NCBI GenBank assembly: GCA_019686135.1
Contig: JADGHL010000041.1
Span: 1 to 36,826 of the forward strand
Source: Myxococcaceae bacterium
GTDB lineage: Bacteria; Myxococcota; Myxococcia; Myxococcales; Myxococcaceae
DNA: 36,826 bases
Direction of reading: 5' to 3'
Within the stretch, counting starts at the first letter, position 1. Each line of letters starts with the position of its first letter. Positions 7,639 through 30,529 of this stretch are shown piece by piece. Position numbers and translations under genes: made by a program. A model generated the notes under the pieces. That model was not told where the DNA came from. It saw only the letters and a list, made by a program, of their open reading frames with translations, and ran no database searches.

Positions 7639-7714
7639 CCGCCGTGCGCCGCGGGAATATCGGTCCGGTGCTTGCTCTTTGAGCCGGGCGAACCCGTTTC
7701 GAGGAGACACGGCG

Positions 7715-8536
7715 ATGGAGGAAGCACACATGAACCCGGACTCCGATCCGGCGGCCGTCCCCGCCCGGCCGCAGCGGCGCGGGCGCGGTGCCGCGGTGAT
7801 GGTGGGCGTGTTCTGCGCCCTGTTGATCGGCGCCGGGGTGGCGTACGTGCTCACGCGCCGTGAGGCATCGCCACAGGTCGTGACGCCGCCTGCCCCCGTC
7901 GTCACCGCTCCGGCGCCCGAGGCCGCGGCGCCGCCGAAGATGGCGCCCATCGAAGGCAGCGAGCCTTCGCTCAGAGAGTGGGTGGCCCGGCTGTCGCTCC
8001 CTTCGGTGTTCTCGCCGTTCTTCGAAGGAGGCGACCTCGCGCGGCGCATCGTCTCCGCGGTGTGGACCGTCTCACAGGGAGAGGTTCCCCGTCCGCTGCT
8101 GGACTTTCTGCGGCCGAAGGGCCTGTTCGAGGTGGAGACGCGGAAGGACGGGACGAGGGTGATCGCCCGATCGTCCTTCGCGCGCTACGACGCGGTGACC
8201 GCGGCGTTCGCGCAGCTCGACATGAAGACCCTGGCGCAGGCGTGGCGTGCGCTCGAGCCGGTGTTCGAGACGGCGCACCGGGAGATCGCCCCGCCGGGGC
8301 GCACCGTGCGCCAGACCCTGGACAACGCGTTGAACCACCTGCTTGCAGTGCAGGTGCCTACGGGTGACGTGGAGGTCGTCCCCGGCGAGGGTGCGCTCTG
8401 GGCCTTCCGCGACGCTGACCTCGAGCACCTCTCGCACGTGCAGAAACAGCTCGTCCGGATGGGACCGGACAACGCGCACACCATCCAGCGCAAGCTGAGG
8501 GAGTTCCGCCAGGAGCTTGGCCGCGGGGCGAAGTAG
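7715..8536 (+). CDS. DUF3014-type single-pass membrane protein
   Basis: A 273-residue protein with a short cytoplasmic N-terminus rich in Pro and Arg, one transmembrane helix (AAVMVGVFCALLIGAGVAYVL), then a Pro/Ala linker and a periplasmic domain. The domain (SLREWVARLSLPSVFSPFF, LARRIVSAVWTVSQGEVPRP, VIARSSFARYDAVTAAFAQLD, ALNHLLAVQVP) has the order of conserved blocks I associate with DUF3014; the function of that family is unknown. ATG 7715 is preferred because GAGGAG lies 8 nt upstream; ATG 7730 also has a good ribosome site and is nearly as likely. The next gene, the seleno-peroxiredoxin, begins 15 nt after the stop. Confidence 0.78.
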   Translation: MEEAHMNPDSDPAAVPARPQRRGRGAAVMVGVFCALLIGAGVAYVLTRREASPQVVTPPAPVVTAPAPEAAAPPKMAPIEGSEPSLREWVARLSLPSVFSPFFEGGDLARRIVSAVWTVSQGEVPRPLLDFLRPKGLFEVETRKDGTRVIARSSFARYDAVTAAFAQLDMKTLAQAWRALEPVFETAHREIAPPGRTVRQTLDNALNHLLAVQVPTGDVEVVPGEGALWAFRDADLEHLSHVQKQLVRMGPDNAHTIQRKLREFRQELGRGAK

Positions 8537-8551
8537 CGCTAGACAGTCTGC

Positions 8552-9028
8552 ATGGCCCTCTTCGGTGGCAACGCCCCGCGCGCAGGTGACGTCGCGCCGG
8601 ACTTCTCCGCGCAGGACACCGAGGGCCGCACCTGGACGCTCTCGGAGATGGTGAAGGACGGCACCGCGGTGCTGGCCTTCTTCCCGAAGGCGTTCACCCC
8701 CGGTTGAACGGCCGAGCTCTCGGCGTACCGGGACCGGTACGCGGACATCCAGAAGGAAGCCGGTCAGGTGCTGGCGATCTCCATGGACGATCGCGACGAG
8801 CTCGCGAAGTTCAAGGCGTCGCTGAAGGCGCCATTCCCGTTCATCCCGGACCCGGAGGGGCGGATCGTCCGGCTCTACAACGTAAAGACGCCGGTGGTGA
8901 GCTTCGCGCTCCGGTTCACCTTCGTGGTGGGCCCGGAGCGGAAGATCCTCAAGGTGGACAGCGGCCGCGACGCGATCGATCCATCGACGGCGATCGTCGC
9001 CTGCTCGCTGCCGGCGAAGAAGGCCTGA
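8552..9028 (+). CDS. Selenocysteine-containing peroxiredoxin (in-frame TGA = Sec52)
   Basis: Thiol/selenol peroxidase of the AhpC/BCP-like thioredoxin fold that reduces hydrogen peroxide or organic peroxides in the cytoplasm. From ATG 8552 the frame reads through [17 protein letters not shown] (residues 9-25) and [10 protein letters not shown], then meets TGA at 8705-8707. It continues without change of frame as [15 protein letters not shown] to the TGA at 9026. The TGA falls exactly where the family has its peroxidatic cysteine (FTPGCT). A perfect 8-bp hairpin with a GGAC loop begins 16 nt after the TGA, as expected for a bacterial SECIS. With Sec the protein is 158 residues, normal for the family. 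The only cysteine is C151 near the C-terminus (ACSLP). Automatic calling would split it into two short pieces. A plain nonsense mutation is the alternative but is unlikely given the hairpin. Confidence 0.9.
8705..8742 (+). promoter_or_regulatory. Sec codon TGA and bacterial SECIS-like stem-loop
   Basis: TGA at 8705-8707 is followed after 15 nt by a perfect 8-bp stem, GCGTACCG (8723-8730) with CGGTACGC (8735-8742), closing a 4-nt GGAC loop at 8731-8734. The distance from the TGA to the loop is 23 nt. Bacterial SECIS elements lie inside the coding region just after UGA, with an apical loop about 16-37 nt downstream and a G among the first two loop bases; all three hold here. The stem codes for AYRDRYA, so it is both coding and structural. 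It should bind SelB carrying Sec-tRNA. Confidence 0.85.
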
Positions 9029-28157: not shown

Positions 28158-29513
28158 ATGCGACGGTTTGCTCTGCTCGTCCTCCTCCTTTCGCCCCTCC
28201 TCGCCTTCGCCCAGGGGCGCGGCAGCCGCGCGCCGTGGGGGATCGGGCAGAGCCGCCCGGAGGATCTGCAGATCACCCTGGTCACCTTCGGGCCGGGGCC
28301 GGAGATCATCTCCTGGTTCGGCCACTCCGCCCTCGTGGTGGAGGACACGCGGCTGGGACAGCGGCGGCTATACAACTACGGGATGTTCGGGTTCGAGAAA
28401 CCCGGGATGCTGGTCAAGTTCGCGATGGGCCGGCTGGAGTTCTGGGTGGAGGACACCCCGTATGTGGTGCCGACCTTCCGCTTCTACGCGTCCGAACAGC
28501 GCGACGTGATTCTGCAGCTGCTCAACCTCTCACCGGCGCAGCGCGCGCAGCTGGCGCAGGCTCTGGACGAGAACGTCCAGCCACAGAACCGCTACTACCT
28601 GTACCACCACTACTTCGACAACTGCTCCACCCGGCCGCGCGACATGATCGACCGCGCCACGGGCGGGGTGCTCTCGGCGATCGGCGCGCAGCCCGCGCGG
28701 ATGACGCTGCGCGAGCACACCCGGCGGCACACCGACTACTTCCCGCCGATGAGCGTGCTGCTCGATTTTTTGATGAACGACGAGATCGACCAGCCGATCA
28801 CCCGGTACCAGGAGGCCTTCCTCCCCGCGGAGCTGATGCACCAGGTGGACGAGGCGAAGGTGACGCTCCCCGACGGGACGGTGGCTCCGCTGGTGGCCGA
28901 GAAGATCACCTGGTTCGAAGGCAAGCGGCCGAAGCCGCCGGAGACCCCGCCGAAGTACGGGCCGGCGCTTCTGGCGATCGGCCTTCTTCTGGGCGCCCCG
29001 GCGGTGCTGTGGGCGGTGTGGTACCGGCGCTCGCGCGGGCGCGCTCCGCGGATCCTCCTCGGCGTCCACAACGTGCTCGTGGGCCTTGTGCTCGGGTTGC
29101 CAGGGACGGTGTTGTTGTTGATGGGCACGCTCACCGAGCACACCGTCACGCACCACAACGAGAACCTCCTGCTCGCCAACCCGCTCACCCTCCTGGCGGT
29201 GCCGTTCGGGATCGGGCTGATGCGCGATCGCGCGAAGAGCAGCCGGGCGCTCCGGGCGATCTGGGTGCTCCTTGCGGGCATGGGTGTGCTGGAGCTCTTG
29301 TTGAAAGCGTTGCCGTGGTTCGACCAGGACAACTGGCGGATCATCGCGCTCGTGCTCCCCATTTCCCTGGGCTTCGCCGCCGCCTCCGTGGTGTATGAAG
29401 CCAGCCGCCATGCCGAACGATCGAACCGAGAAGATGACCGAGCTCCGCCAGCGCCTCGACGCGCTCCGGGGGACTCTTTGACGTCGACCGCAAACGTTCG
29501 CGCATCGCGCTGA
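28158..29513 (+). CDS. DUF4105 (Lnb-type) membrane protein
   Basis: A 451-residue protein. ATG 28158 gives a clean signal peptide (FALLVLLLSPLLAFAQ); GTG 28137 and ATG 28146 are upstream in-frame alternatives. Residues 30-220 form the periplasmic DUF4105 domain: ITLVTFGPGPEIISWFGHSAL, the NYGMFGFEKPG strand, and YYLYHHYFDNCSTRPRDMID. The latter holds the Cys expected in papain-like, Lnb-type acyltransferase folds. The FGHSAL histidine is the likely partner. Four or five C-terminal helices follow from about 270. Some DUF4105 proteins N-acylate lipoproteins; whether this one does is unknown. Its last 104 nt overlap the start and frameshift site of prfB in another frame. Confidence 0.82.
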   Translation: MRRFALLVLLLSPLLAFAQGRGSRAPWGIGQSRPEDLQITLVTFGPGPEIISWFGHSALVVEDTRLGQRRLYNYGMFGFEKPGMLVKFAMGRLEFWVEDTPYVVPTFRFYASEQRDVILQLLNLSPAQRAQLAQALDENVQPQNRYYLYHHYFDNCSTRPRDMIDRATGGVLSAIGAQPARMTLREHTRRHTDYFPPMSVLLDFLMNDEIDQPITRYQEAFLPAELMHQVDEAKVTLPDGTVAPLVAEKITWFEGKRPKPPETPPKYGPALLAIGLLLGAPAVLWAVWYRRSRGRAPRILLGVHNVLVGLVLGLPGTVLLLMGTLTEHTVTHHNENLLLANPLTLLAVPFGIGLMRDRAKSSRALRAIWVLLAGMGVLELLLKALPWFDQDNWRIIALVLPISLGFAAASVVYEASRHAERSNREDDRAPPAPRRAPGDSLTSTANVRASR

Positions 29514-30529
29514 TCGAGCGCGACGCCGCGCAGCCGGACTTCTGGAACGACAACGTCAAGGCGCAGGCGCTGCTGAAGGAGAAGGCGGGCCTCGAGAGCA
29601 CGGTCGGGCTGTTCGACCGCACCGCGCGCGCGCTGGATGACGCCGGCGTGCTGTTCGAACTCGCCGAGGAGGCGAAGGACGAGACCACCCGCGCCGAGGC
29701 CGAACAGGCGCTGGCCGCGGTGGAGGCCGACGTCGGAAAGCTCGAGTTCCAGCGGATGCTCTCGGGCGAGAACGACCGCGCCAACTGCTACATGGAGATC
29801 AACGCCGGCGCCGGCGGCACCGACTCCATGGACTGGGCGGCGATGCTCCTTCGGATGTACACGCGCTACGCCGAGTCCAAGGGCTGGAAGGTGGAGATCA
29901 ACGACTTCGTCGCCGGCGAAGAGGCGGGCGTGAAGAACGTGCAGATCCGCGTGGAGGGCGAGTACGCCTACGGCTACCTCAAGGCGGAGAACGGCGTTCA
30001 CCGGCTGGTGCGGATCAGCCCCTTCGACGCCAACGCGCGGCGGCAGACGGCCTTCGCCTCGGTGTTCGTCTACCCGGAGGTCGACGACGACATCATCATC
30101 GACATCCCGGAGAAGGACGTGCGCACGGACGTGTACCGCGCGTCCGGCGCCGGCGGGCAGAAGGTCAACAAGACCTCCTCCGCGGTCCGGCTCACCCACC
30201 TGCCAACGGGGATCACCGTGGCAGTGCAGAACGAGCGCTCGCAGCACGCCAACCGCGACGTGGCCTGGAAGATCCTCCGGTCCCGTCTCTACGAGCTGGA
30301 GCTCAAGAAGCGCGAGGCGGTCCGCGAAGAGGTGGAGGCGGGGAAGAAGGACATCGCCTTCGGATCGCAGATCCGCAGCTACGTGCTCGCCCCGTACCGG
30401 ATGGTGAAGGACCACCGCACCGGGGTGGAGACCGGCAACCCGGACGCGGTGCTGGACGGGGCGATCGAGGAGTTCATCACCGCGCAGCTGCTCGGGGTGA
30501 AGAACCCCAACCGCGGCGTCCCGGAGTAG
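29410..30529 (+). CDS. prfB: Peptide chain release factor 2, made by +1 programmed frameshift
   Basis: RF2 releases the peptide at UGA and UAA stops. The frame from ATG 29410 (alternative ATG 29434) reads 23 codons to LRGTL, then meets TGA at 29479-29481. The rest of the protein is in the +1 frame from GAC 29480 (DVDRKRSRIALIERDA) to the TAG at 30527. Family motifs in that part are SPF (RISPFDA, stop-codon recognition) and GGQ (SGAGGQKVNKT, peptide release). Total is 372 residues, or 364 from the second ATG, as expected. Its 5' end overlaps the upstream DUF4105 gene by 104 nt. Gene callers that ignore the shift will start it near 29648 and lose about 80 residues. Confidence 0.96.
29467..29482 (+). 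other. prfB programmed +1 frameshift site
   Basis: The 16 nt CGGGGG-ACT-CTTTGAC match the well-known RF2 site AGGGGG-TAT-CTTTGAC in layout. A Shine-Dalgarno-like G-run lies 3 nt before the slippery CTT, followed by the UGA stop and a C. When RF2 is scarce the ribosome slips from CTT to TTT and continues with GAC; when RF2 is abundant it stops. This is autoregulation of RF2 level. Confidence 0.93.

Follow-up and report, generated by a model that had tools for sequence, protein, structure and literature searches.

Known Sec peroxiredoxins and the gene in the window

Peroxiredoxins that carry selenocysteine (Sec) are a long-known family of bacterial proteins. PrxU of Eubacterium acidaminophilum is cited as a Sec peroxiredoxin in PMC13188914 (ref. 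83 therein), and PxxxTxxU is the motif given in that work for Sec peroxiredoxins. The number of peroxiredoxin selenoproteins was put at 12 in a survey from 2006 (PMC1794560) and at 91 in 78 organisms in PMC5029168. For Anaeromyxobacter dehalogenans, probably of the same order as the genome studied here, the 2006 survey gives three Sec peroxiredoxins (PMC1794560, table 3); it was the sole relevant work that we found in the literature on Sec peroxiredoxins of myxobacteria.

The window, i.e. the whole stretch of 36,826 nt that was analysed, is contig C151 of a Myxococcaceae assembly of 5.5 Mb that is 97% complete. It holds a further member of this family, with the following features:

7679..8536, + strand: DUF3014 gene (PF11219, 133 bits), ending 15 nt upstream of the peroxiredoxin start
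8552..9025, + strand: coding sequence of the predicted selenoprotein peroxiredoxin, 158 residues, Sec at residue 52 (PF00578, 110 bits)
8705-8707, + strand: in-frame TGA at the peroxidatic position (GGT-TGA-ACG), putative Sec codon
8723..8742, + strand: putative bSECIS hairpin, 8-bp stem GCGUACCG/CGGUACGC, GGAC loop at 8731-8734
9002..9004, + strand: codon of Cys151, invariant in 87/87 homologues, candidate resolving cysteine
9026-9028, + strand: TGA that terminates the peroxiredoxin gene, the same codon as the internal one

The peroxiredoxin frame starts with MALFGG, and the TGA at 8705-8707 is its sole internal stop. The PF00578 (AhpC-TSA) profile runs across this codon from residue 12 to residue 133 (110.4 bits against a cut-off of 26, E 7e-32), and the TGA aligns with the peroxidatic Cys of the profile. 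The site reads PKAFTPG-U-TAEL and the PxxxTxxU motif is present. The first-pass annotation of this DNA had described a full peroxiredoxin interrupted by TGA at the catalytic Cys and had considered the class as not new. The first statement is borne out by the profile match within the frame 8552-9028, the second by the Sec peroxiredoxins established in bacteria, including those of A. dehalogenans. The DUF3014 gene and the peroxiredoxin gene possibly share a transcript.

Like the known bacterial Sec peroxiredoxins the product belongs to the AhpC/TSA family and has PxxxTxxU, a predicted peroxidatic Sec and a putative SECIS hairpin after the UGA; unlike them, it is short and has one invariant C-terminal Cys. 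Compared with PrxU it scores 46.5 bits, whereas the cut-off of NCBIfam NF040737 is 270. By sequence, the PrxQ/BCP thioredoxin-dependent peroxidases provide the nearest curated models and solved structures (2cx3, 5epf), but the protein reaches only 60 bits against a cut-off of 140, and the resolving Cys that PrxQ has five residues after the peroxidatic one is absent from all 87 homologues, where its place is taken by S, T, K, A, Q or E. Since the protein stays below the curated cut-offs for PrxU, PrxQ and AhpC, we assigned it to no subfamily. As the protein scores below the cut-off of every curated NCBIfam model, a conventional gene caller would probably truncate or split the gene. Structure prediction with AlphaFold2 on three sequences gave a mean pLDDT of 38 and the model was not used.

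The TGA codon among homologues

Homologues were searched for in the 96 genomes of the family and in 145 genomes of the order, the latter including the former. Among the homologues retrieved, 87 were read at the position in question: 45 have TGA and 42 have TGC or TGT; no other residue occurs. The TGA thus corresponds to a Cys codon in 42 homologues, as is characteristic of selenoprotein genes, and with every alternative codon being a Cys codon the frame and the position of the TGA are beyond chance. The homologues with TGA are spread over three families of the order and many genera, and their frames are open beyond the TGA. Nine pairs of Sec forms were compared; in each of them, synonymous change exceeded non-synonymous change on both sides of the TGA, and dN/dS after the TGA lay between 0.04 and 0.69. 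As these values are below 1, the part after the TGA is selected as protein.

These data bear on the simplest alternative, namely that a TGC or TGT codon has mutated to TGA in a pseudogene of this assembly, or that the TGA is a sequencing error. Cys forms are indeed common in the family, and TGC and TGT are each one base away from TGA. However, TGA recurs at this codon across the 45 genes just described, the frames after it are intact with dN/dS below 1, and the genome has the full Sec machinery (see below). Both possibilities are, for practical purposes, excluded.

Beside the codon itself, Sec and Cys forms differ in the Gly codon that precedes it (8702-8704 in the window): within the family, GGT is used in 27 of 32 Sec forms and in 1 of 32 Cys forms. 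GGT also precedes an in-frame TGA in the selD gene of this genome. A 5' context effect of GGT on the decoding of UGA is possible.

Sec machinery and further candidate selenoproteins

All four components of the Sec machinery were found on other contigs of the same genome: selA on C134 (595 bits), the SelB gene on C14, tRNA-Sec on C245 (74 bits against a threshold of 47, anticodon UCA) and selD on C57 (376 bits). The selD gene itself carries a single in-frame TGA (HCAG-U-AAK).

Four AhpC-TSA genes with one in-frame TGA each are present in the genome, on C151, C239, C92 and C87; the window peroxiredoxin therefore belongs to a group of probable selenoproteins. In the C239 paralogue (L047 / L092) the TGA lies at the peroxidatic position (FTPG-U-TAEMKAF), as does the single TGA of the C92 paralogue (L091; FTPV-U-TVQMPSY). 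The C87 paralogue (L093), whose TGA also falls at the peroxidatic position, is PrxQ-like (DTPG-U-TAEGCGF) and keeps the resolving Cys at +5. The C239 paralogue has a signal-like N-terminus, unlike the window protein, which is without an N-terminal signal and for this reason probably cytosolic. This suggests that the same cell has one cytosolic and one periplasmic Sec peroxiredoxin.

The first-pass annotation had placed Sec at the peroxidatic position and had predicted a SelA/SelB/SelC/SelD system. The former is supported by the conservation of the TGA in many independent genomes and by the alignment to Cys and Sec peroxiredoxins (45 TGA, 42 TGC/TGT), the latter by the genes just listed. Two findings had been named that would speak against Sec: first, the absence of all sel genes, which are present; second, sister homologues with TGC and no conserved hairpin. 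Cys forms do occur and their stem is often decayed, so this second expectation came true in part. It does not refute Sec, because the Sec forms do keep the stem, as expected of a SECIS element.

The hairpin downstream of the TGA

A bacterial SECIS element is expected to have a loop of 3-14 nt with a G in the first two loop bases, the hairpin lying 16-37 nt from the UGA. The hairpin of the window consists of the 5' arm GCGTACCG (8723-8730) and the 3' arm CGGTACGC (8735-8742). With its 8-bp stem, its 4-nt GGAC loop and a distance of 23 nt from the TGA to the loop it agrees with this rule, and below the stem two further pairs can form across a G-G mismatch. Stem, loop and distance had been given in the same way before, and the coordinates are confirmed.

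What had been overlooked is that the hairpin is in part a by-product of the encoded peptide. The 66-nt fold around it has a z of -1.4, and when the peptide was recoded with synonymous codons, 12% of the variants folded equally well. The hairpin alone is barely above chance because the conserved AYRDRYA peptide, with common codons, favours a palindrome. After this synonymous-codon control the folding energy was dropped as a test for a SECIS element, being non-specific.

The hairpin becomes convincing only through the comparison of Sec and Cys homologues. Of the cells of the stem, 96.7% are paired in 23 distinct Sec hairpins and 66.8% in 32 distinct Cys forms. The Sec value refers to families f1 and f3; the three Sec forms of f2 were left out because their downstream sequence is differently arranged. 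When the arms of the same Sec hairpins were slid against each other, only 14-39% were paired. With f2 included, at least six of the seven core pairs are present in 42/45 Sec forms and 15/42 Cys forms. Within the family, two codons of the 5' arm differ in a similar way: GCG occurs at codon +6 in all 32 Sec forms and in 23 of 32 Cys forms, and CGG at codon +8 in 30 of 32 and 11 of 32, respectively. Variation in the 3' arm of the Sec forms leads mostly to G-U pairs. In one homologue (L109) a compensatory change from A-U to U-A has taken place at the cost of two otherwise conserved tyrosines.

Other controls gave less clear results. The observed pairing value was reached by 43 of 500 shuffles and is thus only mildly exceptional, since the stem pairs hardly vary. 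Independent pairs on the tree show the association of Sec and hairpin in the expected direction, the pairs being too few for a significant sign test. Synonymous diversity, compared in windows of codons, did not set the entire stem apart; among the Sec forms, the 5' arm and the loop proved to be constrained and the 3' arm less so, with G-U tolerated. Overall, the Sec forms retain the hairpin and the Cys forms lose it, with exceptions in both directions, and the identical 8-bp stem and loop are found in three Cys forms as well. That the intact hairpins of some Cys forms are SECIS relics was considered and rejected, their share being about that resulting from synonymous codon choice. Taken as a SECIS element, the hairpin appears well supported, short of proof.

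The Sec forms L122, L123 and L124 of f2 are without the common hairpin. In L122, GUCGGCG...CGCCGAC could, as judged by eye, pair around a longer loop, and the SECIS element of f2 may differ. The f3 homologues have a hairpin of the window type and share about 41-50% identity with the window protein; they may include the Sec peroxiredoxin genes of A. dehalogenans.

The retention of the stem also bears on a second alternative, in which the UGA is read as another amino acid such as Trp or Cys, or termination is leaky, with no Sec involved. UGA read-through has precedents in other systems and the frame is open on either side of the TGA. Yet the same gene terminates normally at a TGA, its homologues have solely Cys or TGA at this codon, the genome encodes a tRNA-Sec (UCA) and SelB, and the stem is preferentially retained in the TGA forms. 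We regard read-through of this kind as very improbable.

Proposed mechanism

We propose that the gene encodes a Sec peroxiredoxin. SelB with Sec-tRNA-Sec(UCA) would bind the hairpin 8723-8742, and for this reason the UGA would be read as Sec. Sec52, as the peroxidatic residue, would attack the peroxide and become a selenenic acid, which would most likely be resolved by Cys151; a thioredoxin-like reductant would recycle the enzyme. Cys151, near the C-terminus, is proposed as the resolving residue from conservation, because it is present and the PrxQ Cys is absent in 87/87 homologues alike. For this explanation as a whole, from SelB- and hairpin-directed insertion to the likely role of Cys151, we estimate a probability of about 0.94. 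The frame, the position of the TGA, the sel genes, the conserved codon, the hairpin and Cys151 are directly observed, while the insertion of Sec, the activity as a peroxidase, the part of Cys151 in resolution and the reductant are predictions from sequence.

Sec could also be inserted into a protein with the peroxiredoxin fold that works mainly as a sensor or in a redox relay. In favour of this, the protein reaches none of the curated equivalog models (PrxU, PrxQ, AhpC) and is therefore not tied to one exact subfamily or substrate. The PxxxTxxU motif and the AhpC-TSA profile are intact, however, and the motif is kept in the homologues, so that we consider a relay or sensor unlikely and prefer the peroxidase.

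Sec/Cys switching in the order

How frequently Sec and Cys alternate in this lineage had escaped the first-pass annotation. When the Sec column was omitted from tree building, the resulting quick tree, with many open forks, required at least ten changes between Sec and Cys, at least six of which are forced by well-supported branches. Rooted on f2, the tree requires 12 steps with a Sec ancestor and losses only, and 19 with a Cys ancestor and gains only; at equal cost the counts are 10 and 12, respectively. These step counts favour the direction from Sec to Cys without settling it. SelB above the curated cut-off was found in 85 of the 96 family genomes, and Cys forms are therefore common in genomes that still have SelB. 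Two genomes (G004 and G007) each hold one Sec and one Cys copy.

It seems somewhat more probable than the converse that Sec was ancestral at this peroxiredoxin in the order and that Cys took its place on about a dozen occasions, with the Sec machinery retained. If true, this would be the reverse of the trend in the 2006 survey, which for peroxiredoxin counted five Cys-to-Sec events and no Sec-to-Cys event (PMC1794560). The unusual feature is this repeated switching, probably mostly from Sec to Cys. With SelB kept, the many switches amount to a natural experiment on keeping or dropping selenium at an active site.

Some lineages look as if they had been caught in the act of switching: G002 and G005 have weakened stems and stand beside G003, which has TGT. 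L032 and L033 (Sec) and L034 (Cys) are close sisters within one genus; the former two keep TGA with a stem weakened by a C-U or U-U mismatch, and L034 carries TGT after GGT and shares its hairpin with L032. L034 looks like a very recent switch from Sec to Cys.

Other features of the window

A scan of the window for frames joined by TGA returned many chance frames, as the DNA is GC-rich, and supported no second selenoprotein. In the window Rfam gave nothing above threshold, and ARAGORN found no tRNA. The prfB gene for release factor 2 lies at 29434-30529 on the + strand, with PCRF and RF-1 domains. It contains the classical programmed +1 frameshift site CTTTGAC at 29476-29482, with the in-frame UGA at 29479-29481 following MTELRQRLDALRGTL. 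Beside the putative Sec codon, the window has in this frameshift another type of UGA recoding, one that is already known, situated in the gene for the factor that competes with Sec insertion.
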